The position numbers and the translations under genes were made by a program. A stretch of 64,000 nt of DNA from Isoetes taiwanensis (lineage: Eukaryota; Streptophyta; Lycopodiopsida; Isoetales; Isoetaceae): the NCBI GenBank assembly GCA_021234155.1, contig JAJEKV010000008.1:6200945-6264944 (forward strand). The letters run 5' to 3'. The notes beneath the pieces were generated by a model. It worked only from the letters and a program-made list of their open reading frames with translations, did no database searches and was not told the DNA's origin. Of the stretch, positions 7,188 to 59,400 are shown piece by piece. How positions within the stretch are numbered: the stretch's first letter is position 1; the number at the start of each line of letters is the position of its first letter.

Positions 7188-8491
7188 ATGAATTTGACAA
7201 CAAGGTGCTAGCTCCAACTTGGAATAAAGAATTGGAAACCCTAGGGTATGCAAGCAGCAAGATCGAGTGTCCCAGCAATGCAATGCAGACTATACTATGT
7301 TGTTTCAAAGATCCACTGGTTCATAAAATCATTCTTGACAAAGAAGCACAAAGAACAGATCAACAATATTCTGCTGAGTCACACATGGGGTTCAGTGAAT
7401 GGATGTTGCAGATACCACTGATAAACAAGTGTAACAGTGTGCAGGTGTATGAGCACATCAATGGAATATACGAGGCTCTGCCACATAAAATATATAAATG
7501 GACATCCGAGGAAGATGAGGCAAAAAGGCAGTTCTTCATTGGACTTAAAGCTTTAGAGAAGGCAAACAGCATCAAACCCCAGTTCGGATATTTGGAATTG
7601 CAAGAGGAAAAGCAAGGTAATAGTATTGTGGTAGATAACGAGGATCCCTTCGGGGATATGCTGCTGTCTGACAGTGATAAAGTACAACTCAGGGGACAAA
7701 ATGATGAACAACATAATAACAGCAGCAGTAATGATTGTGAGCTAACACTGCATAATACGCACAGGTTCCCTTTGATTCCAGAGAGACTAGTTGAGTCTGG
7801 AGCTTTCTTATGTAACCAAGGCCTTTGGAGGGCAAAGAACTTTGGTGCGCTGGCACCTATCAGTTATGAAGCTTGGAAAATTCTGGGAAGTATCACACCA
7901 GCACAGTTACTGGCTGCGAAAAATGCTGCACAAAAAATGGAAAAGCTAGTTAAGAAGGAAAAAATCAAGCTCATCATTGACACAAGGTTTTTCGACAAAA
8001 AGTGTACTAAAAGTGAGTACATATATGTCAGCCAAAAAGGCCACATGGCCTATCCAACGGAAGTCAGAAATGATTTTTACCTCAAAAAATTATGGAGAAC
8101 CATGTGCCCCTACTTCAAATGTGAATGTGAGCCGATTAAGGGCAGAAACAAGGAATGTGGTGATAACATGACATGGCTTGACCATGGTATCTGGTTTCTC
8201 CTTAATCATCTTGAAGATTTATATCCTGATATGTCCAATGCTGGACGCTTTGTGACTTTTAGAAATTTCCTTATGACATGTCTTAAAACCAACATTATGG
8301 CATTTTTTTCATATCTGGAGGTCAGGAGAGTCCTGTTCGATATGACATTTCAGCTAGCCTCAGATCCTTGGGCTGACTTTAGAATTTCAAGACCCAAATG
8401 TAAGATGAATGATATTTGTGAAAAAACCATAAAAAGTATTGACTTTATGAAGGCAGTGGAGGGAGATGCTAGCACCGATGCTGAGACTTAA
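7188..8491 (+). CDS. Penelope-like element ORF of unknown function (about 430 aa)
   Basis: One open frame of 428 codons to the stop at 8489-8491. An internal Met is at about 7205, but the frame is already open at 7188, directly after a good splice acceptor (CTTTTTAG), and reads DEFDNKVLAPTWNKEL. So this is probably an exon joined to an upstream exon in the pLTR rather than an ORF with its own start. The protein is soluble-looking with no signal peptide or membrane segment. An acidic Ser-rich stretch lies near residues 145-180. The C-terminal third has several Cys/His (MCPYFKCECEPIKG, WLDHGIWFLLNHLE), not in a pattern I can name. The tail is overlapped by another frame that leads towards the RT. 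I recognise no family; similar upstream ORFs with poorly defined roles occur in some endonuclease-lacking Penelope-like elements. Confidence 0.6.
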
Positions 8492-8719
8492 TCCCAGAAA
8501 GGCTAGAACTAGCCTATCTAATAGCATGCAAAGTATAGTCAATGTCCCAAGGCTGACGACTGCACCTCACACTATGGCTACTTCTAGTGAAGTCACACCA
8601 TCAATTGAAGGCATTGCCATTAAAACGATGTGGAGCTATCTCGTGACAAAAGGGAAGCGGGGAGGAGGACAACAAGAAGGAAGGGCTTATCGGCTCAAAA
8701 CTCTGTTTCCAGAAATAAG
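8466..8719 (+). CDS. Short exon-like frame linking the upstream ORF to the RT
   Basis: An open frame overlapping the end of the previous ORF in another frame (RKARTSLSNSMQ to QEGRAYRLKTLFPEIR). It ends at a splice donor (GTATAT at 8720) followed by an AT-rich stretch and an acceptor (AACAG, ending 8925). It is Ser/Thr-rich then basic, perhaps a linker before the RT. The reading phase does not match the RT frame across the intron, so one indel is probably present. Confidence 0.4.
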
Positions 8720-8925
8720 GTATATCCAAAAACTGTTTTTATCATTTCTATAAAGTAGAAAAGCATTTAAATAAGGATAGGACTCCTATCAGACCATTTA
8801 AAAGTGCTTTTGGCACAAAAATATGCCATTTGGCCTGAAATATTCTCACTTACCCTAATGGGATGAGTGCGCTTGTTTGATCTTTTGACTTTAGGTATTT
8901 ATTTAGTTTTTAATATGTATAACAG

Positions 8926-10989
8926 AGGAGTATCAGCAAAGATTGCATGGGAAGAAGACATCTCAAAGGGGGTTTTTAAAAAGCAAGAAGAAGATAGTAC
9001 ACTGTACATTTCTGTCCAAAATTCTAGACAAGATCTGTGTCCCTAAGATTATTGATGCTGCATTTTGCAATCATTTAGGGGAAATTGGCACAAACATCAT
9101 TACTGATACCATGTTCGGGTGGAGATACACGAAAAACCTTAGAGACATATGCTACAAACCATTTGTAACCTTTGCATGTGATAGACCTGCCGGCTGTCCA
9201 TGCTCAAATTCGACTTTGCAAAAGTTCATTGACCCTAAAATAGAGCATATACGGACCACCAATCTGAATATCATCCATAATCGCACTCTTAGGAATCTTT
9301 TCAAAAAAGGCTTGAACCACATCCCTGATAAAAGCCTTGATATGCAGGAGTTTAAAAAGGATCTCAATGGGACTATAGATATGATTTTTGAGTTACACAG
9401 ATTCGTGTACCCACATATTTCAGATATGGATAAGGAAATGATTAAATAGGAAGTCTGGTTGTCTGCTTCAGAAAAAATAAAAGAGGCTTGCAAGACAGAT
9501 GGTACTAGGGCCTTCCCTTTCAATGACCAGCAAGTCACGGAGAATCTGGAGTGGCTTTGCAAGAACTTTTACATTGCCGGAATAGACAAGGCTACTAATA
9601 ATCCTTCCTTTATCTGCCCGACACACATCAGAAAGGTTGCCACTGATAGACTTAACAGTAAGGATTTTATGCCTATAGATATATCAGTACAGGATGTCAA
9701 AATTCTGATTAAGAACGAAATCTTGAATCTAATTGGAGATATACCACTAGAGTCAGACAGCCTGCCATACCTACTGGGTATATACAAGGCGCATAAACAA
9801 GAATATAGATGGATTACCAACGCCCACTGCACCATATTTACTGAAATATCTAAGATTATCACTGCTGATCTTAGTAACATTATCAGCCTATGGCCTGAAG
9901 TTACTAGATCTTTGTGTGACAGGATTTGTACTTTGCTTCCTGGCAAAGTAAATGGAAACTAGATGATTGAATCAGTCTATGATGTTGTATTAAACTTGCC
10001 TGCCAGTATAGAGGAAGCTTTTGTTGCTGATATTACACGCTGTTACGAAAACATACCTCCATGGGGAGTCAGGAATATGCCATGTCATGGAACTGGTTAT
10101 AGAAGCTACCTGGAAGTATATGAAAGGGAAAAATCGCAGACATGAACTTTGGATCAAAAAAGCAAGTGATGGCACATACACGGCAAAGTGGTTTAAATAT
10201 AAACCACAGGGAAAATGCTGGTTATACATGGATGCCAACAAATTTGGCAAAATCAATGCTTGGCTTTTAACAAACTGTTTTGTTAGCTTGGGAGGTAAAC
10301 TATGGAGACAAGTCTGTGGGATTCCCATGGGGTTTTCGTGTAGCCCTTGCTGGTGTAACCTGTACCTAGCATGGTACGAGGTTACTTTTATCAAGAATCT
10401 AGCCTGCCATGGTAGATACAATGATATCAAAATGTTTATGCATACCTTTAGATATATGGATGATCTTCTGGCTATTAACTGCCCAATCATCCGACAGTTC
10501 CTAGGAGATATAATACTGAATAACAGTGAGAGCATTCAAATTTATGATCTCAACAATATTGGGATTAAAGAGGAAACACAAAAGAGGCTGGGATATGAAA
10601 GTACAGAACCTCATGGATATAAAGTTAATTTCCTAAATATGGCGATTGAGATCTTCAATAAAAACAGGGGAATATACCAGACCACCAGGTATGACAAAAG
10701 GGATATTCTACCCTTTAAAGCTATCAAGTTTATCCATGCAGATAGCTGTAGACCCTATCACCAAGCTAGAAATGTTATTATCTCCCAAATCCTACCCTAC
10801 ATGTATGTAAATTCAGGGCCTGTCAATGCAACAAACGACACAGTGCAGTTAATGAGAAACTTCATCAACAATGGATTTGACTTCAGAGGGATCAAAAGAA
10901 AGGTGTTCCAGTACATAAGCAACAATGAATTTCTAGGACTTAAGTTCGATACTATGGTGCTGATGCAAGAAATCAACAGAAAACTTTAA
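8926..10989 (+). pseudogene. Penelope-like reverse transcriptase (decayed)
   Basis: RT of a retroelement that primes on DNA ends. Read in order: a basic N-terminal region (HGKKTSQRGFLKSKKKIV); a Cys-containing segment (CDRPAGCPC, about 9180); SLPYLLGIYKAHK (about 9760), like the LPKIHK segment of Penelope RTs; motif A ADITRCYENIP (10027-10059); motif B GIPMGFSCSP (10318-10347); motif C YMDD (10453-10464); and a thumb-like C-terminal region to the stop at 10987-10989. Motifs A and B resemble Penelope and telomerase RTs. No GIY-YIG domain follows. Breaks: TAG at 9447-9449 and 9960-9962, and a frameshift between about 10060 and 10080. The intron 8720-8925 lies immediately upstream. Confidence 0.75.
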
Positions 10990-38289: not shown

Positions 38290-38666
38290 GGTATAAATTT
38301 ATACCTTAATAGATAGTAATATGTGGACATAGTATGCTAGAGAGTTCGCACGGTATAAATTTATACCGCAAGAAGACTTGAGCGGTATAAATTTATACAA
38401 CAAAAGAACTCAAGCGGTATAAATTTATACAGCAAAAGGACTCGAGCGGTATAAATTTATACCGCAAGAGGACCCAAGCGGTATAAATTTATACCGCAAG
38501 AGTTTTCTCGGTATAAATTTATACCAAAAATATATATATATATGTATTATATAAATATATAATATATATATAACATATATATTTACATATATATATCCGA
38601 AAAAAAGAGAAGTCTTATGGTATAAAATCTATACCATGAGACTTCTTCATGGTATAAATTTATACC
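38290..38666. repeat. Palindrome array GGTATAAATTTATACC
   Basis: Perfect or near-perfect 16-bp palindromes at 38290, 38352, 38384, 38416, 38448, 38480, 38510, 38619 (one base longer) and 38651, with another copy at 39416-39431. From 38352 to 38525 the spacing is 30-32 bp, and the palindrome is often extended by GC on both sides, with AAGAGGAC-like spacers. An AT microsatellite (38525-38600, 38676-38765) interrupts the array. Confidence 0.9.
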
Positions 38667-40296: not shown

Positions 40297-40301
40297 TGTC
40301 T

Positions 40302-41862
40302 TGTGACGCTCCCTGAACATATACGGCGCTCCGGACGTATACATACGGGGACTTCCCCCTCCCATGGCAACCGGCTCGCCATGAGCAGGGCCCTCCGTTT
40401 AACTCGAACCATCCATAGAAAGATGCCCGGGTGAAGGACACGGAGGTGTCATTCGGCCCACGCCTTCAATGGAACTCCTACGTCGCAGAAGCATGCATAC
40501 AAGGTTAGCATACAGCATGATCATATCATAAATAACCACCACGAAGGGTGGCACATCCATCCAACTGATAATAACAGAGAAGATACATCTAATGCTAAGG
40601 AAAACACCCCAAACCCAAGGTTCTACCCCGGCTCAGACTCCAATGAGGATCGACTGACGGCTAGGTCTCAGAAGATTAGCAGACAGAATCTTGGCATGGC
40701 GTTGGCTAGCATAGAACATCGGCTAGGGTTGTCCTCTCCATCCGCCCCTCCTGTGCACACTTTGCAGATGAGCTGAATCAAGCTATGGCGTCATTGTAGC
40801 CTTCCGGAGATGCAATCCCAAGGCATCACACTCCGGGACTACTCCGCGTTACATCTCCCCGGTCCGATGAGGCAGGTCAGGGAAGTGTCCCTTCCCAGAG
40901 TCGCAGTGATTCCATGGGTGAGCTAGAGAATACGTGCCGCATCAGCGACCCCCGCATCCGTACCCGACCTGCTCCCCTAACTTTATCTTCAAAGTACAGG
41001 ATGATCACACCACTGTACCCAGGGAGTGTCAGACCCATACCCGGCCCTCTACGTGACCGGCTATCAGGCCTAGCTCACTGAAGGAGTCCCCGTAGCCTTT
41101 TATGCTCAGGCGAGACCCCACCCCACACTTCATCACTACGGCCCCTTATCTGGTGCTTCAATCATGCCATAGATTCCACAGCTCAGTGGGATCTTGTGCA
41201 CAGGCCGCAAGTACTGGGTACTATGGGAGCTAGTAGGAGCATACTAATGAACATAGGTTACAGAGGTCTCTACCCCCCCTTAATCCCTGCTTTCTGGAAG
41301 AACTAACAGAGATACTACCAAAGATACATCCATCCATCCATCACAGAGCATAATCAATAGTTGAGAACAGTTCTAACTACCAAACAAGGGTTAATCATCA
41401 TCAGAAACAAACAAAGAAGCCTGACAGAGGCACTGGCCCTAGAAATACCAAATTAACCTATTCACTAACCCGAATTCCGGCTGGAACCATTGTCATGTGA
41501 CATCTCCATCTTCAAGCAGCCTGGGCGCCCAGCAGCTCCTCTCCCTAGATTCGATTTGAGGCAAATTGGGATTGGGATCCAATTTGCTGCCCCAAATTAG
41601 CAGTCTCCTACTGGCCAATCGAGTTTGGCCAGGTGTCCTCTTCCTGATTAATTAATTAGCCTAACTTAATTAGCTTAATTAAGTTAATTAGATAATTATT
41701 CCTTAATTATAGATAACTAACCTTTAATTAAACCCTTATTAATTTAGCATAGCTAAATTAATCCTTTGTGGTTAGTCCACATACCCCCATGATGGCGTAT
41801 CCTCGGCCCGTGACGTGTCAGTATATTTATACGTACACCGTATAAATATGTGGAATGTCACA
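40302..41862 (-). repeat. 3' LTR (left copy)
   Basis: 1561 bp, TG...CA. It contains an AT-rich block of TTAATTA words (41646-41760) shared with the other LTR, and a stretch TATAAATATG near its right border. Confidence 0.92.
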
Positions 41863-41877
41863 TTCTCCCCCCCTTAG
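41863..41877 (-). other. Polypurine tract of the LTR retrotransposon
   Basis: Minus strand CTAAGGGGGGGAGAA directly before the 3' LTR, where plus-strand DNA synthesis primes. Confidence 0.85.
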
Positions 41878-42499: not shown

Positions 42500-45400
42500 C
42501 TACTGCATGATCCATGCCGAATCAAGCCTTCCAAGCTTACCGCCGGGTGCGGGGTTGATGACATCGTTGATGGTGCGGCCTTGAGATTCCCGCATGAAGT
42601 TCGGATAGTGCTTTTCAAGGTCTATCTTCATCACCCACGTAGCATCCTCAGTTGGCAAGTGCTTCCACTTGACCAAATATTGTAGCATTTGAGTCCTTCT
42701 GGTCTGCTTATAGGCACGATCAAGAAGAGCTTCAGGCACTATCTCTAGATGCTCTTCTGTCATTTCAAGGAGGGTGGGTGTATCCAAGATCTCCTCTGGA
42801 TCTGGAGTATGTTGCTTCAAAGACTCACGTGAAAGACCTTGTGGATCTTCAAAGCGGGTGGCAAATCCAACCGATATGCCCGTTCTCCAACGCTGCTCAA
42901 TGATGTTGAATGGCCCAGCCCATCGGGTGCCGTTTCTTCGCGCTTACCAATCTTAAGCTTGGCTTGCTTAACCTTAATCTTGAGCCAAACTGAATCGCCT
43001 ACTTGGAATACTTTCATTGGGTCCTTCGTGGCTTATTAGCCACACTTTTCGGCGACTACATGCAGCCAATAAATAACCACGAACTTCCTCAACCAAAGCT
43101 TGCATTTCCAAGAGGAGTTGCTGAGAAACCTCCACCTTAGAAACAGGATTATGCCATGTGTCTGGAGTAAGGCATTGATAACCATAATTTATCATGAAGG
43201 GAGACATTCTAGAAGACTCCTGTTTCATGCTGTTATAGGGAAACTCCACTAAATAAATATAGTCAGCCCACTGAGATTGCTTACTCCAGCTTCACAACAT
43301 ATCCTCTATAATGCGGTTGGTGCGCTCTGTCTGTCCATCCGTCTGAGGATGATATGCTGTACTCATAGCAAGCTTGGTCTGGATGGTGGCAAAGAAATCT
43401 TTCCAGAATGCACTTACAAACTTGGGATCCTTGTCGGATACTATCACTCGTGGCATCTCGTGTAATCTGAAGATTTCCTTTGCAAACAGCAAAGCTGTGT
43501 CCAAGGCTATATCCATGGTGCGACATGGCAAGAAATAAGCCATCTTCGACAACTTGTCGACCACTACCATTAAGGCATCATATCCACGGAGGGTACGTGG
43601 AAGGCCCACAATGAAATCCATGGTTATCACTTCCCATTTGGCGTTGGGCACATCCAGAGGTTGCAATTCTCCTGGAATCCTTAATTGCTCGGCCTTGGTT
43701 TGCTGACACACTTGACATTGCTTAATGTATCTGGCAATGTTTGTCTTCATACGCGGCCAATAGTAGCTGGAGCGAATCTTAAAGTAGGTCTTCATGAAGC
43801 CTGCATGTCCAGCTATAGGGCTGTTGTGTGTATCATGGAGAATAAGCTTACGTACTCTCAAGTCTCTCGGTACACACAAATTATCTTTGTAATATAGCAA
43901 ATTGCCCTCCTTCCTATAATGAATGAAAACCTCACGCCTCCTTATCCCTGTGCCTCCTTGGCCAAACTGTTTCCACACTTCACGGATTACGGATCCGTGG
44001 CTAAGGTGTGTTTCTATTCATAACCACATTGTGTTTGCCCAATTTATACATAATCTCAAAATCATACTCCTCAAGAAACTCCATCCATCTTCTCTGACGG
44101 AGATTGAGATTTGGCTGGGTAGAAAGATAACGGAGGCTCGGTGATCCAGATCTAGTCGGAATCTCCTACCAAGAAGGTAGTATCTCCATATACATAAAGC
44201 GGGACAAGCTGCTAACAATTCCTGATCATGGGTAGGGTATCGCTGTTCGGTCTCATTCATCTTCTTAGAATCATAGGAAATAACCCTCCCTTCCTGCATT
44301 AAGACTCCCCCGGTAGCAATCTTACTGGCATCTGTTGCTACTAACTTATCCTTCTCCGGGTCTGGCAACGTGAGGACTGGTGCCGAAGTCAAAGCATCCT
44401 TAAGCTTCTGAAAACTTCTTGCACCTTCGTCTTCCAGTGACCTACCCAATCTTTCACTTTCTCATGCTTTGTAAGGTCTGTGAGAGGACCTGCAATCTTG
44501 GCAAAATCCTCTGCCTCTATTTTTGCTGGATCTGTAGCAATTCCTTTGGCTGAGATAACATGCCCCAAATAATCCACCTTTGGTGTGGCGAATCTGCACT
44601 TGGAGAACTTTGCGACGAGCTGGTGACGCCTCAGTTTCTGCAAGGCCATCCTAAGGTGCTTCTCATGCTCGTCAAGGGTTTTACTGTAGATGAGAATGTC
44701 GTCAAAGAAAATAACAACAAAATCATCCAAGTATTCTCGGAAGACATCATTCATCAACCGCATAAATGTTGCGGGGGCATTAGTTAAACCAAAAGGCATA
44801 ACTGTGAATTCATAATGCCCGTATCTAGTACGAAAGGCAGATTTATGGATGTCTTCCTCTTTAATTCTTATCTGATGATACTCGGAGCATAAGTCAATCT
44901 TTGAGAAGTATTTGGCCCCTTGCAATTGGTCCATAAGATCATCTGCTCTAGGTAAAGCATAGCGATTCTTGATCATATGCTTGTTGAGCTGCCTATAGTC
45001 AATGCACATCCTCATGGAGCCATCCTTCTTCTTAACAAAGAGAATAGGAGCACTAAAACGTGAAACACTAGGCCGAATGAAGCCTAGGTTCAATAGCTCC
45101 TGCAGTTGCTTCTTAAGCTCTGCCAACTCAGGAGGACTCATGCGGTACGGCACCTTACTGGTAGGCTTAGTACTCGGTTCCAAATCTATCTCACATTCCA
45201 CTCCTCTGAAAGGAGGAAGCTTCTGGATCTCATCTGGAAAAAGATCCTTAAATTCTCTGAGAAGATTGGCAATGTTCTCTGGCAATGCATCGACTACCTC
45301 CTTCTGTTTAGCATCCGACTCAATGGAGGCAAGTCTGATGACGCAAAGTATCTTATGCTTTCGTATAGCCCGATCTAACTGCCTGATAGATATGGACTGC

Positions 45401-46336
45401 ATAATTGGGTTTAATGGATCACCTTTAATAGTTACTCGGGCTCCATTAGCTGCGTTGAAGGTCACTTCCCGTTTCTCGCAGTCTATATTGGCTTTAGCAG
45501 ATGCCAAGAATTCCATGCCAACAATAAGATCATATTTGCCGATATCCATTAGCTCGGCACCTAAAGCAACTGGTGCAACTGGCAACTGCATATTGAGGTT
45601 AATGCGATGGCCATTTGTATGCCTGATCTTACCACTGGCTAAGGTTACCGGACGCGGTCTGGATCTTAAAGTCTCAAGTTTCAACACCTGGGCCATTCTG
45701 GGAGAAGCAAAATTATGGGTACTACCCGTATCCATAAGAATAACAAAGGGCTTACTGTCTACCTGGCCTATAGCAGAAATAACGGCAGGCTGACTTTCAG
45801 CATTGCCGGTTTCAATAGCTGCAAAAATATGGGACGCACCATGAATGTACTCGTGGGCCTCCTTGTCAACAGGTGGTGGAGACTCGAGATCGTCCCAATC
45901 GAGGTCGGCCATGGCCAGCTGAGCGGTTTGTGTGACATAAGGGTAGTTCTGCATCATGTGGCCGGGCCGCATACACCTGAAACATGCCTTATCTTTGCGG
46001 AGCTGTTCTCGAGCCTCTTTGGGAATAGACTGTAAGAGGTCTCGAATCGAGCTACCCATATTATTCGGCTTATCCGGCACGTTGAAAGTGACTTTCTTAT
46101 CCTGTCGGCCATATGAGTTTTGCTGAGGGGGTCCAGGACTTGGAGAACGAGGCTTGTAGGGTGTGTAAGGGCGAGGCTGAGAATAAGAGGTGGGACGCTG
46201 ATACTGGTTCTTTGATATGTCCTCCTCGAGGCTTAATGCCTTAGCCTCGGCCTCTGCGACAGATTTTGGGTCTATGGCCTTTACCATTCCTTTTAATGGA
46301 CGGTGCCAACCCTTCAATATATCCCTTCACTGCCCT
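42500..46336 (-). pseudogene. pol: LTR retrotransposon pol: nucleocapsid finger, PR, RT, RNase H, integrase, chromodomain
   Basis: Long frame 44389-46317: zinc knuckle [15 protein letters not shown]-type (about 45970), protease [10 protein letters not shown] (about 45730), RT with [16 protein letters not shown] and FFDDIL (about 44700). RNase H continues in another frame (44018-44449; VATDASKIATGGVL). Integrase 43292-43978 has the HHCC finger (HAGF, CQVCQ) and D-D-E residues in TMDFIVGLP, VIVSDKDP and TDGQTERTN. After a TGA where Arg fits (43292), the frame continues to a C-terminal chromodomain (42597-42745; VPEALLDRAY, LVKWKHLPTEDATW). Frameshifts lie near 46290 and 44445. Chromodomains bind methylated histone tails and can steer integration. 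Confidence 0.85.
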
Positions 46337-46891
46337 CATTAGAGGAAATTTGAGATCTCATTTCATCCCCATAAGAATCCTCCAATGGAATGGCTACCCT
46401 CTATTAACTGCAATTAATGTAGCACCAACAACTTTATTGCTGTCATTTTTCCCCCATAACTTTTGATCCACTTGTCAAAATGTTGCGGCGTTTGTTGCAT
46501 TAGATGCGGAATGAAAAGATCTTTCCAATGATATATGGTTATGATGTATTTCAATATGGTCATATGCGTTAACCTTAAAAAAATATGATTTTTTGCTTAT
46601 TTCTTATATATTTATATCGTAAAAAATATATGAATGGGTTATCACTAGATAGATCTTGTGAAGACGAACCCATTGCTACAAAAAGTTTTTGAATCGGAGT
46701 TCTGGATCAAAAGTTATAATGGAAAAATGATACTACAGAAGTTAGTTGCAGCTGCATTAATTACAGGCTGCCACATAATACTGGAATGAGATATACTGGA
46801 GCTCTTCTCTTATTGGACAGTTTAAAAAGCTGACATGGCATTTTAAGCATCCCTTAATGGGACAAAATGTGATCTCATTTTTCCTCTAATG
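46337..46891. mobile_element. MITE-like insertion in gag, 555 bp
   Basis: Inverted ends: CATTAGAGGAAATTTGAGAT at 46337 and the inverse CATTAGAGGAAAAATGAGAT read from 46891, followed on both sides by CATTT and ATCCC/GTCCC. It splits gag between the LYVPGI segment and [10 protein letters not shown]. No coding capacity. The target duplication could not be fixed by eye. Confidence 0.7.
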
Positions 46892-47655
46892 CCCGGCACA
46901 TATAGCCTCAAGCGCATGAATTCGTCAGTATAGGCTTGAACTGACATACTCTTCTGCTCCAACCTGTAGAAAGTCTGTATCTGTTGGCACTTATGTGCAC
47001 AGGGCACATAGTGCGACTTAAAAGCCTTTGCAAACTTCTTAAACTTGCACCTGCTCCTGTCCAAATGCTTTGCCCTAGCATAACCCTTCCATCAAATTCT
47101 TGCTGCACCGGTGAGGTTGGTGGTGGCGACCTTACCTGTATCCTTCTCAGTCATACCATATGATTTCCCAAATTCCTTCATCTCGTCTAACCAAAATTCC
47201 GCATTAAGACCTCCCCTGGATTTCCCATCAAACTGGGCTAATTTCCTGTTCTTCCATATGCTTGTAATGGCTGTGTCCACGGTCTTACGATATTCCTTAT
47301 CCTTCTTAACATGGTGACCTGACGACACGGATGATTCGGAAGATTCAAAGGTGTCAGTCTGTGAAGACGTGGCCCTCTCGGTAGAAGAGCTTCTACGTCG
47401 CTTGGCATGGTGTCTCTTCTGTACAGGCACGGGTGCTGGTGCCGGTGTGGGTGGCTGCTCGGGTGGTGGACTCGGCGGTAATGGCGGTAACTCCGGTCCA
47501 TTTTCAGGTGCAAACCGCGGAGGGTTTGTGTTCAACACGTAGGCTTGCAGCTCTATTAACTGCCTCTTCATCAAAAGGAGCTCTTGCTCGGGTGTCAATC
47601 TGCCAGCATCCGGAGGGGTATGCCAAGAAGCATTTCGTACACCGTCTATATACAC
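46892..47655 (-). pseudogene. gag: LTR retrotransposon gag (interrupted)
   Basis: Capsid-type polyprotein in several frames: a start region near 47650 (SWHTPPDAGRLTPEQELLL), a Pro-rich then basic Ser-rich linker, QFDGKSRGGLNAEFWLDEM (about 47210), and after a frame change FAKAFKSHYVP and RLEQKSMSVQAYTDEFMRLR (about 46950), the classic Ty3-type gag core. The MITE-like insert follows, then 46317 onward continues with [15 protein letters not shown] and the zinc knuckle in the pol frame. Confidence 0.75.
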
Positions 47656-47888
47656 ATAAGAAGGTATAAGCGAGTGTAATATTATACAAAGTGTCACAAT
47701 GAAGACCATTTTGAACAGTACAATGAAACATAAGAAAATAGTACATATATATTATGTGATGGCTCATTGAAAATGCCAATCAAAAATTACATTTATAAGC
47801 AATACAAAGAGTTAATAATTGTCAAAACATATTTAAGAACTAGGTCCCTCATCTTCCTCCATAGGCTGTGGAGGTGGCCGATAGCGCA

Positions 47889-49244
47889 TTAAGGTGGTGC
47901 TGGGACTAGCAGAGAGGGCGGCCGAGCTGCTGCATCTGGTGGTAGGCAAGTCGCCAAAGGTGCTGCGACAAGGAGACGCATGTTAGCCCAGCCCGCAACG
48001 TCGCCCAATGCCACAATAGCAAGATCTCGTCGGACCAAAGTAACAGTGGTGGCATGATAATCAATTTTCTTGTGGCCCGCCAAGGTGGATAATGCACAGA
48101 GTGCCCACCAAGATGCTTCAGATTGAGGCCCCAAATACTTGGAGAAGAAAAGGACCTCACCTTGTCGGAAAGCAGAAAGGAAAAATCGGGTCAACTGACT
48201 GCCCATTGCCTTAACCCGTGGATCCCTCGAGGTTTCCGTTTCCTTTTTCAAGTTGATGGATATCTTTTCCGGCTCGGCCTCTTCTTTATCATCCCCGAAG
48301 AGACTTATCTTGGCATCACAAAGGTCTTCCTCACCCTGATCCACCTCTGCCATAGTGATCTCCAATGGCTGACTTGTAGGAGGAGGTCGCATGATAGCCG
48401 CAAACTGCTCCGCAAAAGGCTGTGTATCATCGGTCAATATGAACTGTCGGAGAGATAAGAGGGTCTCAACGGGCTCTATCTCCTCTGGCCGAAATGTAAA
48501 CAATTCTTGGACTTGCGGCGGATGCACAACAGGCGTTGTGAAATCGACGAAGTCATCCGGGCAGAACTCTGCAAGCTCATAAAGGACTTCAAGCTTTCGC
48601 CGGCCGCGCATGTCGGCGATAACGCGGTAAGCCCACATGATATCTTCCAAAATAAGATACTCTTGGTTGTTCAAGAGTATAGTGGGAAGAAGATCTAGCC
48701 CTTCAAGCTTTAGGGCTTTATCACGGCCTGTCGGTGCCTCCGTAGCCAGTTGCTTCCATCTTATAAAATCATGCTCATCGACGACTTCATCGACTTCATC
48801 GTCCTCTGGGTCAGGGGGTACTGGCGTGGTAGACTGCTCTGCAGGTATCTGTACATCTTCTATGTACTGGTCCATGACGATTGCCAGTGCAAAACAGGCT
48901 TCAAAACAAAGCTCGCGGTCAATGGTGACAATAGGAAGGTCAGTCCCTCTTCTCCTAATGCCCCTGAGAACATTACGTGCATGATCATCATCTCCTAACA
49001 TCTCTACCAAGGTGTTGAAGTCGAGGTACAGCTGGGAGTCTGCTTCGTTGAAGACACATGCAGGCACAATCTCTTCGTAGAAGAACTGAAGAAAACGTGC
49101 ATAGTCAGGATGAGCTTGCATGTTGTGGATAAGATCCACTTGCTGGATCAAATGAGGGTGCAGTACGTCAAAGGGAACCGCAGGGTCCCAATGTTCACCG
49201 TCCAGGTACCATTGCTGTAGAGTAGGGCGGTCCATCACGAACAA
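47889..49244 (-). CDS. Accessory ORF C: N-terminal motif plus H2A-like histone-fold C-terminus (451 aa)
   Basis: Intact frame between ORF B and gag, same strand. Residues 25-55 contain IQQVDLIHNMQAHPDYARF, a motif also found in ORF B ([20 protein letters not shown]), so the two ORFs are probably paralogues. The middle is acidic (PEDDEVDEVVDEHD). The last 104 residues (47892-48203) resemble a histone fold, best H2A: LTRFF, then LAGHKKID (H2A LAGNAARD), then TLVRRDLAIVALGD (H2A IVPRHIQLAVRND), then ANMRLL (H2A LSKLL), with a Pro-rich tail. The similarity is weak residue by residue but collinear, and it sits next to an ORF with an unmistakable H3 domain. The histone-fold call is inference. Confidence 0.5.
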   Translation of the reverse strand: MFVMDRPTLQQWYLDGEHWDPAVPFDVLHPHLIQQVDLIHNMQAHPDYARFLQFFYEEIVPACVFNEADSQLYLDFNTLVEMLGDDDHARNVLRGIRRRGTDLPIVTIDRELCFEACFALAIVMDQYIEDVQIPAEQSTTPVPPDPEDDEVDEVVDEHDFIRWKQLATEAPTGRDKALKLEGLDLLPTILLNNQEYLILEDIMWAYRVIADMRGRRKLEVLYELAEFCPDDFVDFTTPVVHPPQVQELFTFRPEEIEPVETLLSLRQFILTDDTQPFAEQFAAIMRPPPTSQPLEITMAEVDQGEEDLCDAKISLFGDDKEEAEPEKISINLKKETETSRDPRVKAMGSQLTRFFLSAFRQGEVLFFSKYLGPQSEASWWALCALSTLAGHKKIDYHATTVTLVRRDLAIVALGDVAGWANMRLLVAAPLATCLPPDAAARPPSLLVPAPP

Positions 49245-49506: not shown

Positions 49507-50487
49507 CTAGTGAAAGTCGCCTCGGATTCTTCGCGCCAGCTGCAGGTCCTTAGGCATTATGGTCACTCGCTTCACGTGAATAGCGCACAAGTTTGCATCG
49601 CTCAAAATCTCAATAAGGTAGGCTTCAGCAGCCTCCTGAAGTGCAAGTAAAGCAAAAGCCTGAAACCTCATGTCGGTCTTGAAATCTTGGGCAATTTCCC
49701 GGACAAGACGTTGGAAAGGTAGCCGGCGTATCAAGGTGTCAGTAGTCTTCTGATACTTGCGTATCTCACGTAGAGCTACTGTACCTGGTCGAAACCTGTG
49801 GGGCTTCCTCGGGTTGGCATCAGGCTTGGGCAATGGTAGGGTCTTACCACCAGTCGAGGGGTGTTTTGCCCTTTGTACCATCCGTTCCCGACGTTGTGCT
49901 GACGTGTTCTCGCCGATCTCAGCGTCCTTCTGCAGTCGGGTCCTGTAATGGACGCCTCCCCGCCTTGGTTTTGTGAACTTCCTCTTCGGGTTACCCACTC
50001 TGTCCTCTCTTCCTTGAACAACATTTTCGTCTGTACTCTGCTGTGTTTGGGCAACCTCTTCTGCTCTACGGATCCGCTCTGTCTCAGCATCTCGGGCCTC
50101 CTTGTCCTGGCGCACTTGAGTTCGCCGTGCAATCTCTGCATGATACCGGGCCGGGTGAGCTTGCATGTCGGCTTCTATGAGGTCCATGCGGTCCTGTGTG
50201 ATTTCAGATGGGAGATCATCGAAGATGAAGCTATGTAATTCTTCATTCCAATAGAAAGGGGGAAGATTATAATGATCCAAATACATGAGCACATGGCCTT
50301 TCCCTAGGTAATAGAAACATGCAGCTCTCTCTTCTGGAAGGCCACTAGCAATCTGTTGGAGATCCTCTAACCTTGCAAGGTGCATAATCCTTTGAGCTTC
50401 CTCTCGGATAAGCTCTACAGGGTCCTCCTCTGGGCTCGGCAGCGAATAGAACTTAGTTATGGCATAAGCTTGGTCAGGCTGTTCCAT
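49507..50487 (-). CDS. Accessory ORF B: fusion protein with a C-terminal histone H3 domain (326 aa)
   Basis: Intact frame of the LTR retrotransposon. Residues 1-120 are a retroelement-specific region with the MQAHP motif shared with ORF C. Residues 120-205 are charged and basic ([12 protein letters not shown]). [11 protein letters not shown] near residue 210 recalls the H3 tail around K9-K14 (STGGK kept, K9 position altered). Residues 230-326 (49800-49510) are a full H3 core: [69 protein letters not shown]. By eye about four in five residues match canonical H3. Loop 1 has canonical length, so it is not CENH3-like. No intron. It follows a short frame (50457-50711) that may be its true N-terminus. 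Confidence 0.88.
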
Positions 50488-50711
50488 AAGAGTATATTAG
50501 AGTGATTTGCAGCATTCAACTTCATAAGAAACCGTTCATTAAAATGAAAGATAGGGTATGGAATTCGTCGGCTCTCAGCAAAATGGGTCACAAGCAGGTC
50601 TAAAATCACATCGACGTCGTCACTCTCGTCCGCCAGATGGTCTACGAGCACACTGTAGAGCTGATAGAGGGTCATCTTCTTTAGGTCGACGGTAAGTTTG
50701 AAGCGCGACAT
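50457..50711 (-). CDS. Accessory ORF A: probable N-terminal part of ORF B
   Basis: 85-codon frame ([20 protein letters not shown] start) overlapping the first 31 bp of ORF B in another frame. Acidic with [18 protein letters not shown] one-base indel would join it to ORF B, giving a protein of about 400 aa; alternatively ORF B starts by reinitiation. Confidence 0.5.
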
Positions 50712-51250: not shown

Positions 51251-51329
51251 CTAAACTTCCTAAATCCCACAATGTACCTCATCAACCTAGCACAAGACTA
51301 CATCACTGAGAAGTTAGGCATGTCATGTC

Positions 51330-52220
51330 AAGGTCCTTAACAAACCAGTAGGCCAAGGATTGGAGGAATCCAAAGACTTAATAAGCCCTACTGAAGTATT
51401 GAACCCGAAAGATCATAAAGGGAAAGGGGTAATCTGCCTGGAACAGAAGGAGATGGTTGTCACACCTGCTCATCAGCTCAGGAAAAATACCCTTACTATT
51501 CAGGAATCTGAATTTCCTCCAGTCAATACATACCCTGAGTCTTCTGACTCAGGTCTTTCCATAGGGGGTACACTTCTGCTCAAAGGAGAGGGTTCTTAAA
51601 TCCATGAAGAAGTAACTCCTAAAAGCATTAATTTCTCCACTCCTGGAAAAATTACACAGAGCCCTGATATGGGAGATATCCTCTTGGACATAATGGAGAG
51701 AGAACAAGAGATTGAAAATGGGGAGAGGGTCCCTGCCACCCCAACTGAGTTTTTAACTCCAGCAAATACAGTGTATGAAAACAAGTTTAAATTCTATACA
51801 AAATCCCCAATGGAGGATCTGCCCATGGACACTGAGAGGATAGGAGAAAGATTTGATCAAGAAGATGATTCAATTATGATGGACTCTACTTTAACTCCTA
51901 TAAGTCCTGTCAAAGGCCAGGGTGAAGTGGACCATGATGAGCACAGACCTATAACACCATCTAGCCTAGGACTGGAGAAATCCAGTGGACTAATAAGTCT
52001 AGATGGCCAGGTAGTGCTGACTAAGATATCAAATGGTCTGGGATCAAACCCAATAAACCCAATTGAGTATAAGAAGGAGGGGTCGATTGCCAAAAAGGAT
52101 GATCTTGAGGTATTCTACACTCCTATGATAAAAAAATGCAATAAAAAGGTTCAGTTCTCAGCTGACAGCCCAGCCTTTAACTTAAGGTCTCAGGCTAGAA
52201 CTAAGTGCCCTGCTCAATGA
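51330..52220 (+). pseudogene. LINE ORF1 (one stop)
   Basis: Acidic, Pro/Ser/Thr-rich protein, possibly 5' truncated. Open from about 51330 (QGLEESKDLISPTEV) with TAA at 51597-51599, then continuing in the same frame (EEVTPKSINFSTPGKI) to TGA 52218-52220. No RNA-binding or zinc-knuckle motif is seen. The stop overlaps the ORF2 start as ATGA, which suggests termination-reinitiation. Confidence 0.55.
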
Positions 52221-55200
52221 GGATAGTCACTTGGAATATGAGGGGGATAAAGGGCCCCCTCAAAAGAAAGAGAGCACTCATAGCTCTTAAGGAGATGAAA
52301 GCTGACATTATTTTGTTACAGGAACATAGACTTCCAAGTTTTGAATCCCAACACTTGGGGTCTTGGATCATTCCCAATGGAGTCTCTGTATATGCCCAAG
52401 CTGATGGGACAAAGGGGGGCATCTGTATGGCTTGGAAAGGTTTTGGCTGCTGTCAGAAATTCACACATAGCTCAGGGAGATGGACTGTAGCTGTCTTAGA
52501 GAAAGGAGCAGAAAAATTGGGAATTTTCAATGTCTATGCATCCACTGAACCAAACGAAAGGGCTGATCAGTGGACTCAAATGAAACAATGGATAGTTGGC
52601 AATCAAGTGGAAAATTACTTGATAGCAGGTGACTTCAATAACACACCACAATGGGATCAAAAGTTAGGGAAGAAATTGAATATGTCTAAAAGGGAATCTG
52701 CTGCTTGGGATTTACTGATAACTGAGTGTGTATATATCCCCCCATCTTCATCTCAAACTTATTCCTGGAGTAATAAGAGAAAGGGAGATGATAGAACATA
52801 CTGCCTGCTAGATAGATTCTATCTCTGCAATAAATCTCTTCTCAACTGGGATAATATGGTAGTTACTGGCGACACAGGGAATTCTATTTCTGACCATATC
52901 CCACAATACCTAGATGACAAGATGGTTGCATGTAAGGGTGGTCAGAACATCCCATTCAAATTCAACACAGAACTGTTGAAATGCAAAAGATTTTGTGATG
53001 AATTCAAAATCTTCTATAGTTCCTTGCCACCTCTACCAAAAACTGAGTCAATGAAAGCATTCACCATTAGGCTGAGGGAATTCAAGGGCTGGATTAAAAG
53101 ATGGGGCAGAGAATGGATTAAAGAGAAGAGGAAAGAGAAATGTGAGATTTATCTCAAGATCAGTGAAATAAGAAGGAAACTTTTTCAGGATAAGAATAAC
53201 AAACTGGCACAGCAAGAAGAGGAGGAGCTTGAGAAAAAGGTAAAGGCAATTGAAGAGAGAGAGGCTAAATCACTTGCAGTAAGGAGTAGATGTAAATACA
53301 TCAATGGTATGGATAATGGAGGTTTAGCTTTCTTCTTCAGGGCAGCAAAAAGTAGAATCTTGAATAATGGTATTGTGAAGGTAAATGATGACAGAGGGAA
53401 AGTCATTGAAGATCAAAAGGAAATAGAAGGTTTTTTCCATGATGAATATAGGAAGATGTTCCAGAATTACCAAGTACATGAAAAAGTGATTGATAATTTC
53501 TTTCAGAATATTCCTAAAGCTAAGGAGGAGTTAAAAGATGATGAACTTTTAGCAGTTCCCCAAGAGAAAGAAATTTGGGAGACTCTCAAATCTATGGCTG
53601 CTGGGAAAAGCCCTGGACCAGATGGATTCCAGCCCGAATTCTATGTGGAATTTTGGGAAATAATGAAAGATGACTTGATAACTTTTTTTCAAGGCTCTTG
53701 GAAAGCCACTAGCCTCAACCCAGCCATAAATGCTGGACACATTACACTTATTCCAAAGGTGGATTGTCCAAAAGGGATTGGGGACTGGAGACCGATTTCT
53801 TTAACAAACACAAGCTACAAAGTCTTAGCTAAGATATTGGCAAATAGATTAAAAATGTTTCTGCACTCAACAATTAATCCCTGCCAATCAGCTTTTTTAC
53901 CTCAGAGGAATATAATGGAAAATTATATTGGAGCTGCTGAAGGTCTGCATTGGAACAAAAGATCAGGACAAAATTGTATGTTACTCAAGTTGGATTTCAA
54001 AAGGGCATATGATACAATAAGCTTGCAGTTCTTAGAGAAAGCTATGACACATATTGGGCTTCCAAGCAATGTCTACCAAAAGGTTTGGAGCTTTAATGTA
54101 AATTCAGCATCAGCATTAATTATCAATGGCACACCTACCAAGTTGTTTAAGTGTCAAAGAGGGGTTAGACAGGGATGCCCATTGGCCCCTTACCTGTTCC
54201 TCATTGTGGCTGAGATGGTAACAAGGAAAGCAGAGCCTTCAGCTACCAGATAATAAAGGTCCCTTCACTATGATGCAATATGCAGACGATACTTTTGTAT
54301 TTTTGGATAAAGAAGATAAGAGTTTGGAAAACTTTCTGTCAGCTATGGATAAATTTGGTGATGCTGCAGGAGTCAGACTAAACAAAAACAAGAGTGCCAT
54401 AATTTATGACTCACGAGATACAATGCTACAAGGGATCAAAGTGTTAAGTTCCAATTCTGCCACAAGTATCCTGGGAATTCCTTTGTCAATTAACAGTTCT
54501 TTGCAGGGTATATGGGAACCCATTGTGACCAGAATAAAGAAGAAGTTGTCCATGTATACCTCCTCATTATCTCTGGCAGGAAGAATTGAAATTGCAAATG
54601 CTGTAATAAGTAGCACACATGTGTACTTCTCGTCTGCTATAGTTGGAGACAAAAACTCTTACAATAAAATGGAGGCAGCAATAAGGAAATTTATATGGCA
54701 AGACTCTCACAAGGTGGCATGGGCAGACCTAATTAAATCTAAAAAAGAAGGAGGTATGGGCTGTAAGGACATGTTCATTCAAGCTCAGGCACTAGCAGCT
54801 AAAATGATATGGAAAGCAATTTTTGCCACAAAGCCATCCCCTGCTTTACAATTGGTGAAATATTGGATTCAGGAATCCTTCCCTGTAGGAAGCCATACTC
54901 TAAAACATCAACTTCCAGACTCGGCTTTCTTCCAATTGTCCCCTTGCCCAGGTACTTCTAACATTCTTAAAAGGATGCTGGAGGCCTAGAACAATGCATC
55001 ATTGTGCTATAGACCTCCTAATATTGATGCTACATGTAAAGAGGTGAATTTCTTTTGGCACCCTGATTTTGCACCAGAAAATATAGGTTGTCTTGCTTTG
55101 AAACACCCACAGAAGTATATGCAGTGGCATAAGAATGGAATTAAAACATTTGAGGATCTCAGAATACAGGATAGATGGATGTCTTGGGAGGAATTTGCAG

Positions 55201-55958
55201 ATAAGACAAACGGATCTGAACTAGACAAAGAAATTTTCAGGGTTGTTATGAGCAGGATAGAAGGATATGATGAGTTTAGTAACAACTCAAGTACATGGCA
55301 TTTGAATAATAAGGAATGGTACTCGGTCAGAGAAATTTACAAAGCTCTGGTGCCAAATAAACCATCCAAGGCAGGTCCCCTATGGCAGTGTAATGAAGAC
55401 AAACTTGCAGATATATGTGCTCAAGGATGGTCAAGTTATTCTGCAAATAAAATTAAAGCCTTTAGGTGGCTGGCAGTACACCAGAGTTTGCAAACAAATC
55501 AAAAAAGAGCTAAATTTGATAGGTCTGTATCAGGTTTATGCCCTCAGTGTGGACAGCTAGAAACTTCAAATCATGTCTTCACATGTTCATGGTTAACTGA
55601 ATTTTGGAGTTGGTCTGCCCAGATTAATAAAGAAGCCCCTACTGATCAAAATTTGCTTAGTTTTTGGGATACCAATGATAGACTGGAGAGTACCACAAGA
55701 ACTTTGAGCTGCTGGGTTGTCTGGCTACACAGAAACAGGGTTGTGATCAATAATCAACCTCCTTCCATCATTTGGCTTAAGAGAGCTTTTGTAGACATTA
55801 TCCAAATCACTGCCATAGCTCACAGGATGCTCAAAGGAAAGAAATATGATTCAGCTTGGAATTCTCTGGGGAAATTCTATGGTTTATATGATTTCTTTCT
55901 AACTAATCTAACCATTTCAGATGATGTACTGCACAGATGCACAGAGGAGGCTCAATAG
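52217..55958 (+). pseudogene. LINE ORF2: APE endonuclease, reverse transcriptase, Cys-rich finger
   Basis: Endonuclease (52217-52930): TWNMRG, LLQEHRL, AGDFN, SDH. RT (about 53580-54400): KSPGPDGFQPEFY, LIPKVDCP, DWRPISL, KLDFKRAYDTI, GVRQGCPLAPYLF, then after a frameshift near 54220 MQYADDTF. The C-terminal finger region has LCPQCGQLETSNHVFTC (about 55540). TAG at 54987-54989 also interrupts the frame. The set of motifs is that of plant L1-type LINEs. Confidence 0.85.
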
Positions 55959-55968
55959 AGTTGGGAGT

Positions 55969-56307
55969 ATGGATCGAGCAATGGGAGTGGCTGAAGATTC
56001 AGAGGATGAAGATACCCAATTGTCTCAAGCTGAACTGGAGGAAAGGCTGATCCAGCTCAAGCAGGCGGTTATACATGCTAAGGCCATTAAGAAAGTGCTG
56101 AAACGGGCTGAAGTGTGGAGGTATAACAGTCTTAAGCCTTACTTCACCTCTCTTTACCATAAGTGGCAGCAGAAAAGAGAGGCCAACGTGTTGCTGCTCC
56201 TTGATTTTACAAACTTCCAGACTTGTGTACTGGACACTCTCCTTACAATCCTTGGAAACTGGAGAGTTGCTGATATTACAATAGAGGATTTACTGGATGA
56301 GGACTGA
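55969..56307 (+). CDS. LINE third ORF, about 113 aa, intact
   Basis: Follows the ORF2 stop by 10 bp if it starts at ATG 55969 (MDRAMGVAEDSEDED); an upstream ATG at 55921 would overlap ORF2. The protein has an acidic start, then a helical, probably coiled-coil stretch (ELEERLIQLKQAVIHAKAIK) and an aromatic-rich basic region (RYNSLKPYFTSLYHKW). No known domain. A third ORF is unusual for plant L1-type LINEs. Confidence 0.5.
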   Translation: MDRAMGVAEDSEDEDTQLSQAELEERLIQLKQAVIHAKAIKKVLKRAEVWRYNSLKPYFTSLYHKWQQKREANVLLLLDFTNFQTCVLDTLLTILGNWRVADITIEDLLDED

Positions 56308-56563
56308 AGTGGGAAACAGACCCAAAGGAAACTTTCTGATGCAAAAACGCTATATTATCTTGGTTAAACAGATTATTAGTATAGCTATATTACTATGGTA
56401 CATGGATCCCTTTTATAAGGACCATGTAACACATTTTGGCATCATGTATCCTTTGCATATGGATCATGAATTTTGGCCGAATAGTATCATGCACCTATTA
56501 GGTATGTCTGCAATGATATACCATCTGATGTATCTTTCTTAGATGAAATATAAAAACAACCTT

Positions 56564-56607
<44 letters not shown>

Positions 56608-56681: not shown

Positions 56682-56698
56682 ATCACGGCTCTGATACC
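56682..56698 (-). other. Primer-binding site of the LTR retrotransposon
   Basis: Minus strand TGGTATCAGAGCCGTGA, two bases inside the 5' LTR. Complementary to the 3' end of plant initiator-Met tRNA. Confidence 0.9.
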
Positions 56699-56700
56699 AC

Positions 56701-58249
56701 TGTGACGCTCCCTGAACATATACGGCACTCCGGACGTATACATACGAGGACTTCCCCCTCCCATGGCAACCGGCTCGCCATGAGCAGGGCCCTCCGTCTA
56801 ACTCGGACCATCCATAGAAAGATGCCTGGGTGAAGGACACGGAGGTGTCATTGGGCCCACGCCTTCAATGGAACTCCTACATCGCGGAAGCATGCATACA
56901 AGGTTAGCGTACAGCATAATCATATCATAAATAACCACCACGAAGGGTGGCACATCCATCCAACTGATAATAACAGAGAAGATACATGTAATGCTAAGGA
57001 AAACACCCCAAACCCAGCAAGGTTCTACCCCGGCTCAGACTCCAATGAGCATCGACTGACGGCTAGGTCTCAGGAGATCAGCAGACAGAATCTTGGCATG
57101 GCATTGGCTGGCATAGAACATCGGCTAGGGTTGTCCTCTCCATCCGCCCCTCTTGTGCACACTTTGCAGATGAGCTGAATCAAGCAATGGCGTCATTGTA
57201 GCCTTCCGGAGACGCTATCCCAAGGCATCACCCTCCGGGACTACTCCGGGTTACATCTCCCCGGTCCGATGAGGCAGGTCATAGAAGTGTCCCTTCCCAG
57301 AGTCGCAGTGATTCCATGGGTGAGCTAGAGAATACGTGCCGCATCAGCGACCCCTGCATCCGTACCCGACCTGCTCCCCTAATTTTATCTTCAAAGTACA
57401 GGATGATCACACCACTGTACCCAGGGAGTGTCAAACCCATACCCGGCCCTCTACGTGACCGGCTATCAGGCCTAGCTCACTGAAGGAGTCCCCGTAGCCT
57501 TTTATGCTCAGGCGAGACCCCACCCCACACTTCATCACTACGGCCCCTTATCTGGTGCTTCAATCATGCCATAGATTCCACAGCTCGGTGGGATCTTGTG
57601 CACAGGCCGCAAGTACTGGGTACTACGGGAGCTACTAGGAGCATACTAATGAACATAGATTACAGAGGTCTCTATCCCCCCTTAATCCCTGCTTTCTGGA
57701 AGAACTAACAGAGATACTACCAAAGATACATCCATCCATCCATCACAGAGCATAATCAATAGTTGAGAACAGTTCTAACTACCAAACAAGGGTTAATCAT
57801 CATCAGAAACAAACAAAGAAGCCTGACAGAGGCGCTGGCCCTAGAAATACCAAATTAACCTATTCACTAACCCGAATTCCGGCTGGAACCATTGTCATGT
57901 GGCATCTCCATCTTCAAGCAGCCTGTGCGCCCAACAGCTCCTCTCCCTGGATTCGATTTGGGGCAAATTGGGATTGGGATCCAATTTGCTGCCCCAAATT
58001 AGCAGTCTCCTACTAGCCAATCGAGTTTGACCAGGTGTCCTCTTCCTGATTAATTAATTAGCCTAACTTAATTAGCTTAATTAAGTTAATTAGATAATTA
58101 TTCCTTAATTATAGATAACTAACCTTTAATTAAACCCTTCTAAATTAATCCTTTGTGGTTAGTCCACATACCCCCATGATGGCGTATCCTCGGCCCGTGA
58201 CGTGTCAGTATATTTATACGTACACCGTATAAATATGTGGAATGTCACA
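56701..58249 (-). repeat. 5' LTR (right copy)
   Basis: 1549 bp, almost identical to the left LTR. It lacks a short stretch (around TTAATTTAGCATAGC) present there. Confidence 0.92.
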
Positions 58250-58254
58250 TGTCT

Positions 58255-58925: not shown

Positions 58926-59400
58926 TGCCTAATGCCATCTGTACTTTGCGCCATCTTCTTACCTTCGATACTTGGGGGCAAAAAAAGCAGACAAGAAGTC
59001 TCGATGTGCCTTCTGTTTTGGCCTGAATTTGTACTTGCATTATGCACTGAATGTGTCAAACATAATCTAAAGCTTGTTCTACCATCAACATTTGGATGTG
59101 TACAACATAATGCCCTCAACATTTGTTCTATACAAAACTTCCTTTGAATCGCTATCTCTACTTTGCGCCATCATCTCATCTTCGTTCCAATCGGGAAAAA
59201 AAAGTATTCTCTCTGATCTAGCCTGAATTTGTACTTGCATTATGTGCTAAATGTGTACAATATAATCTCAACGCTTGTTCTACCATCAACATTTAAATGT
59301 ATACAACATAATGCCCTCAACGTTTGTTCTGTACAAAAATTCCTCTCAATCGCCATCTCTACTTTGCGCCATTGCCTCATATTCATTCCACCTGTAGGGG
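58926..59400 (+). repeat. Diverged tandem repeat, period about 200 bp
   Basis: TACTTTGCGCCAT recurs at about 58942, 59158 and 59361; GAATTTGTACTTGCATTATG at 59024 and 59225; CAACATAATGCCCTCAAC at about 59102 and 59306. About 2.3 units, non-coding. Confidence 0.7.

Follow-up and report, generated by a model that had tools for sequence, protein, structure and literature searches.

A histone H3 core fused to an element-specific protein in Ty3/Gypsy chromoviruses of Isoetes taiwanensis

Results

The retrotransposon in the window

The window analysed here is a stretch of 64,000 nucleotides of the Isoetes taiwanensis assembly (contig JAJEKV010000008.1, positions 6,200,945 to 6,264,944). It contains a Ty3/Gypsy chromovirus, identified by its LTRs, a 5-bp target-site duplication, the primer-binding site (PBS), the polypurine tract (PPT), the domain order and a chromodomain (Table 1). 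The order along the element is 5' LTR, leader with a nested LINE, ORF1-H3, ORF2, gag, protease-reverse transcriptase (PR-RT), RNase H, integrase, chromodomain, PPT and 3' LTR. The LTR pair, aligned over 1546 sites, differs by 30 transitions and 10 transversions (K2P 0.0264), and the primer-binding site presumably fits the plant initiator tRNA-Met. The window copy is dead, with gag, pol and the ORF1 N-terminus each split over frames. The nested LINE separates ORF1 from the 5' LTR. It has a poly-A tail; a clear target duplication around it was looked for and not found.

Table 1. Features of the chromovirus copy, in positions of the window
Feature	Position	Strand	Basis or remark
Target-site duplication TGTCT, low-coordinate side	40297..40301		read from sequence
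3' LTR	40302..41862	minus	96% identical to 56701-58249; TG...CA ends
Polypurine tract CTAAGGGGGGGAGAA (minus strand)	41863..41877	minus	read from sequence
Integrase end and chromodomain	42503..42943	minus	Pfam Chromo 8.5e-09
Integrase, two frame pieces (44017-43295, 43291-42977)	42977..44017	minus	Integrase_H2C2 2e-20, rve 3.6e-07
RNase H	44021..44461	minus	RT_RNaseH_2 3.7e-27
Protease and reverse transcriptase frame	44392..46326	minus	RVT_1 2.1e-37, RVP_2 7.7e-13
gag, two frame pieces (47751-47095, 47091-46846)	46846..47751	minus	Retrotrans_gag 1.5e-08 in second piece
ORF2, 451 aa, acidic, pI ~4.5, without known domain	47889..49244	minus	Pfam and PDB searches
ORF1-H3 fusion, 326 aa in window copy	49507..50487	minus	minus-strand translation, Pfam and PDB matches
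Histone H3 core, residues 227-324 = H3 positions 36-133	49516..49809	minus	Pfam, PDB and H3.3 alignment
STGGK, H3 tail remnant, residues 211-215	49843..49857	minus	read from sequence
N-terminal part of ORF1 domain	50460..50711	minus	other frame in window copy
Nested LINE, approximate borders, endonuclease and RT	51325..56603	plus	border by alignment with copy L009; RVT_1 9.4e-28
Primer-binding site TGGTATCAGAGC	56688..56699	minus	read from sequence
5' LTR	56701..58249	minus	96% identity to other LTR
Target-site duplication TGTCT, high-coordinate side	58250..58254		read from sequence

Elsewhere in the window, positions 10021-10989 (plus strand) carry a weak RVT_1 match (E = 0.0041) with a YMDD motif, alongside other long frames at 7205-9962, and are perhaps a Penelope-like or DIRS-like element. 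A 32-bp tandem repeat around CGGTATAAATTTATACCG lies at 38351-38510, and a direct repeat pair with a spacing of about 200 bp (83-88% alike) at 59012-59390.

The histone core of the window copy

The first-pass annotation had placed an H3 core with a trace of the H3 tail in an intact frame between the LTRs of a Ty3/Gypsy element. The minus strand from 50487 to 49507 indeed translates into 326 residues, and the plus strand there is crowded with stops. Pfam Histone (PF00125) matched residues 208-322 (E = 1.5e-40), and all of the best 60 of 176 distinct sequences matched in the PDB were histone H3 (top match 3.5e-49, residues 224-324); the fusion thus contains a histone fold of the H3 type. The STGGK trace is present, and the frame does lie between the two LTRs. 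As for the further claim that this frame is intact and gag and pol are broken, the latter two are split as described, but the N-terminal part of ORF1 is out of frame as well, with intact copies starting about 74 codons further upstream, so that the argument from an intact frame is weak for the window copy.

From K37 on, the window H3 differs from plant H3.3 at 18 of 97 residues, with a mean BLOSUM62 score of +0.94. Plant H3 was taken through the same number of changes in 5000 neutral simulation runs, of which 3155 contained a stop; none of the 1845 stop-free runs was as conservative as the window H3 and 13 had as few radical changes, a result that leaves room for a divergent donor gene and thus called for other copies. 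A CENH3 identity, which would imply a divergent core and a longer loop 1, was rejected, since canonical plant H3 aligns without gaps across loop 1. Single-sequence structure models reached a mean pLDDT of 45.0 and 53.1 and were unusable.

Copies in the host genome

Searching the assembly (1,658,258,908 bases in 1110 contigs) with the fusion (query P0001) returned at least 199 matches, with 123 of 9955 candidates scored. At least 28 of the matches listed, the window included, extend from residue 5 or before to residue 324 or beyond (counted by hand). The search for other copies with the same ORF, suggested at the outset, therefore found many: the fusion is multicopy, and a single chimeric insertion was rejected.

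With canonical H3 as the query, at least 150 matches were obtained (best 150 of 9037 first-look candidates scored). Fifteen were host-type, 98-99% identical to plant H3 over positions 1-136 in one open stretch, and 135 had 72-86% identity. Seven of these 135 element-type matches have a stop within the matched stretch by hand count, a share that is biased since the best candidates were scored first; the element context was checked for part of the 135. All 69 candidates of an H4 query were scored, and 43 matches were kept, including 16 full-length ones at 99-100%. In the comparison of these two histones, made on candidate counts rather than copy numbers, H3 is amplified and H4 is not, and element H3 sequences may far outnumber the host H3 genes (9037 against 69 H4 first-look candidates).

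Anatomy of the fusion and its neighbours

The family sample was hand-picked from the P0001 score list and comprised 20 long stretches (9.8 kb each) and 20 short ones (about 1.7 kb), the latter mostly from rows without stops. Together with the window copy this gave 41 distinct loci, 40 usable H3 cores (L018 was left out of the H3 set) and 32 usable N-domains. The N-terminal domain (N-domain) and H3 occur in all 20 long stretches, which were chosen by that match, and the fusion has a fixed place in the element. ORF2 was found in 16 of the 20, gag and PR-RT in 15 each, RNase H in 10, integrase in 8, a chromodomain in 5 and a PBS-like site upstream in 10, counts to be read with several stretches ending early or being truncated copies. 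Many element copies are broken. In many, a single reading frame of about 390-450 codons is open throughout and encodes an acidic N-domain, a basic linker and the H3 core; proteins from open frames that start with the methionine of the N-domain measure about 390-450 residues. The N-domain spans about 200 residues with a pI of 4.7-6.2 (6.7 in L061, upstream residues included), the linker combines Gln/Asp repeats with basic stretches (pI 8.2-10.9, 23 proteins), and the H3 part runs to the natural H3 end.

Profile searches of the PDB gave nothing credible for the N-domain (12 sequences; best E 0.08, a GNAT acetyltransferase), nor did a Pfam scan, with one weak match to FANCI_HD2 at 0.042 in one of the 12. 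ORF2 has a pI of 4.4-4.5 in all six sequences (window, L017, L018, L024, L026, L028); its profile search of the PDB with these six returned nothing up to E 1 and its Pfam scan nothing credible. An origin of ORF1 and ORF2 by duplication was rejected: the local score of 51 was equalled in 46 of 500 shuffles and is not significant, and three other comparisons were weaker. In three copies (G000:C1019:5370961-5374387, G000:C1030:8717494-8720897 and L025) pol follows H3 at a distance of only about 1 kb, too short to accommodate ORF2, and in L025 gag begins about 140 bp after H3. A subfamily without ORF2 may exist.

Further families and association with pol

Ten extra loci from the canonical-H3 list were assigned to three families (A, B and C). 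In six of them the ORF is whole and follows the same plan (L060, L061, L062, L064, L065, L066); for L057-L059 only short stretches were retrieved, and L063 holds part of the frame. Compared with the N-domain of L022, those of L060, L062, L064 and L065 show 32-37% identity. Three pol loci chosen regardless of H3 (L067, L069, L074) carry H3 stretches at 70-77%. Their N-domain stretches match at about 32-33%, except for one of 29 residues at 48%, and the frames of all three look broken. The family C copy L060 starts its ORF1 (265-291, plus strand) with MARTKGTKS, near the H3 tip MARTKQTARKS, and family A copies start with MANTKS or MAITKS. The start of L060 may be chance or a histone-tip mimic.

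A pol query gave at least 134 matches, with 69 of 35868 candidates scored. At least 19 of the 69 scored pol loci have H3 1.07-3.78 kb upstream on the same strand, according to an H3 list picked by eye. For eight other pol loci, part of the upstream stretch was inspected and H3 was present in three. The remainder comprise one locus with N-domain and ORF2 and no H3 between them, two with ORF2 and gag and no H3 in the part inspected, one with gag only and one with an LTR close by. Some of these loci look like deletions, and a sister family without H3 may exist. The first-pass annotation had made a conserved function depend on whether other copies keep the H3 part; the fusion recurs in many copies and families, with H3 seen at three of the eight extra pol loci.

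Selection on the H3 core

Pairwise Nei-Gojobori estimates, in which pairs are non-independent and deep dS is saturated (315 of 320 host-window-family pairs), gave a dN/dS of 0.042 for the H3 core (40 copies, 731 usable of 780 pairs) and 0.157 for the N-domain (32 copies, 480 usable of 496 pairs). Among pairs with dS of 0.2-1.2, omega was 0.059 for H3 (codon bootstrap 0.038-0.082, 333 pairs), 0.189 for the N-domain (0.139-0.242, 328 pairs) and 0.155 for ORF2 (15 pairs from 6 sequences). With rising dS, from the bin 0.02-0.1 (5 pairs) to the bin 1.2-3 (352 pairs), omega of H3 fell from 0.342 through 0.181, 0.084, 0.069 and 0.050 to 0.036, a pattern expected when inserted copies decay freely and the replicating line is constrained. 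The comparison of the H3 part between copies, proposed with the first description of the locus, thus shows strong purifying selection on the H3 core in the replicating lineage.

Origin of the histone and its kept and lost residues

The captured H3 has no intron. A nucleotide tree, rooted on the host genes and uneven in its deep support, separates all 50 element H3 cores from the host genes as a single clan. Eight of the 15 host H3 genes were fetched; L049 has T31 and H87, the other seven have A31 and S or T at position 87, and E77 is found in all eight. The element cores share A107 (50/50), R36 (47/50), A or T at 86 (50/50), F87 (47/50, with H87 in the other three), L or I at 89 (47/50), E, D or A at 102 (49/50) and S, T or G at 105 (50/50). 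R36 and the changes listed from 86 to 105 are absent from the eight host genes, except for H87. Based on these shared element-specific residues and the single clan, repeated independent captures were rejected, and the changes shared across families would fit one old capture. H87 occurs in the three cores of families B and C and also in L049, the H3.3-like host gene, so the donor was likely an H3.3-type gene.

Kept residues include R40, R83 and L126 (50/50 each), H113 and R116 (49/50), C110 (47/50) and, among the lysines, K56, K79 and K115 (50/50) and K122 (49/49); K64 is R in 39 of 50 cores. We take R40, K56, R83, L126, H113, R116 and C110 to be contacts to DNA, H4 and H3'. The tail with K4, K9, K27 and K36 is missing apart from a TGGK-like remnant, and position 36 is mostly R. 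All 23 proteins have K at the place of K14 and 19 of the 23 show [TS][GA]GK; the K9 context ARKS occurs in none of the 23, and family A has a more distant form of the remnant, VGAKT. As read from the alignments, K4 and K27 appear to be without counterpart.

Discussion

The fusion is real, conserved and multicopy, and the element is a chromovirus with a captured domain: an intron-free canonical H3 sequence at the C-terminus of an element-specific protein, amplified with the element and common to several families. We tentatively favour, at a probability of about 0.4, the reading that the chromovirus lineage encodes an H3 variant for nucleosomes unable to carry silencing methylation. Judged by its contact residues, the fusion would pair with host H4 and enter nucleosomes, which would be most useful on copies of the element itself, whether newly made or integrated. 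Since K4, K9 and K27 are lost and K36 is mostly R, nucleosomes with this tailless H3 could not carry the silencing methylation of H3K9 and H3K27. The N-domain of about 200 residues, displayed on such nucleosomes, might act as a tether for element proteins, and ORF2, by its charge and position, could be a chaperone or partner of the fusion. Selection, the kept contact residues, the loss of the tail, the fixed place, the unamplified H4 and the acidity of ORF2 all speak for this nucleosome reading. Against it stand the changed residues 86-89, owing to which host chaperones may reject the fusion; they include a stretch tied to the assembly route in animals, where positions 87-90 steer assembly according to the available part of a review of viral histones (PMC9145170). 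A second point against it is that five of the eight extra pol loci showed no H3 upstream, some being clearly deletions.

In a fuller version, the lineage would supply its own nucleosome, with an H3 unmethylatable at K4, K9, K27 and mostly K36 that is loaded, perhaps by ORF2, on its own DNA; copies would then escape H3K9 silencing and display an element domain, and the integrase chromodomain would find host heterochromatin. As a whole, this scenario is doubtful.

The H3 core is consistently joined to an element-specific N-domain, itself under selection (omega 0.157), and the same element has a chromodomain, both of which would also suit a function as chromatin tether: H3 would be a handle that anchors element proteins, and with them the integration complex, in host chromatin, with the tail loss being incidental. 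However, the chromodomain already offers targeting and a binding of the N-domain to gag or integrase would have to be assumed, and we consider this unlikely.

It is improbable that the fusion, with or without H4, serves to coat element RNA or cDNA, whether inside the particle or during transport to the nucleus. The basic linker (pI 8.2-10.9 in 23 proteins) and the kept DNA-contact residues would suit such packaging, but packaging alone has no obvious need for the contact residues to H3' and H4, which are nevertheless kept, and DNA-packaging viral histones are described for DNA viruses in the part of PMC9145170 at hand. A protein that binds host H4 or histone chaperones outside chromatin and thereby disturbs host silencing in trans would explain why residues 86-89 and 102-107 are altered and the H4-facing residues kept; such a decoy would not need the DNA-contact residues, which are kept too, and its probability is similarly low. 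Finally, a captured H3 copied along without function, as known for H3 passenger copies in fungal hAT transposons (PMC6710886, available in part) and in keeping with the many broken copies, was rejected as highly improbable given the dN/dS of 0.042, the shared element-specific changes, the same fusion in families with N-domains 32-37% identical to that of L022, and the 0 of 1845 neutral runs as conservative as the window H3.

Histone methylation is one of the main means by which plants silence mobile elements. If the favoured nucleosome reading is true, the fusion would represent a counter-move of a retroelement at the level of the nucleosome, in which H3 was captured, the silencing residues were lost and the fold was kept under selection. 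It would also be a natural test of what an H3 core can do without its tail, and the mobile element may build its own chromatin.

Comparison with known systems

No description of a retrotransposon-encoded histone was found in the open-licence PMC literature searched, and an IMG/VR scan with P0001 gave three pattern matches, none of which was confirmed. The accessible main text of the Isoetes genome paper does not contain the word histone, and plant-protein-like repeats were taken out of the repeat library there (PMC8566536). PMC6338049, represented by an excerpt, is among the nearest literature.

Captured additional ORFs are shared with LTR retrotransposons of bdelloids; those ORFs are enzymatic or membrane proteins downstream of pol, and the word histone is absent from that text (PMC5408684). 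The bracovirus histone CpBV-H4 is delivered by a parasite, and its N-terminal tail alters host expression after joining nucleosomes; it differs in being an H4 of a polydnavirus in an insect system (excerpts of PMC5423620, PMC9145170). The viral histones of DNA viruses include virus-encoded H3 with a kept core but belong to DNA viruses instead of retroelements. Two phycodnavirus-like MAGs encode H3-like proteins with N-terminal extensions of about 170 residues of unknown kind (partial text of PMC9145170).

In fungal hAT elements, H3 was likewise captured by a transposon, a transcript being the apparent source, and was then multiplied; these are DNA transposons, and the sections available describe no fusion to an element protein. 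Their H3 copies are RIP-decayed in the Pseudocercospora group, and 23 of 26 Pyrenophora copies are said to be potentially functional (PMC6710886). Orchid Gypsy elements with an AlkB-type m6A demethylase have in common with the Isoetes element that large Gypsy elements acquired a host-type domain, there likely directed against host surveillance, whereas the captured domain is a different one. The accompanying screen of 121 angiosperm genomes reported 15 unusual domains and named no histone in the part of the paper available, with non-seed plants lying outside the screen (PMC9289625). Plant Ty3/Gypsy chromoviruses in general share with the Isoetes element the LTRs, PBS, PPT, gag, the PR-RT-RH-INT order and a C-terminal chromodomain; what sets the Isoetes element apart from them is that gag is preceded by two additional ORFs, one being the H3 fusion.
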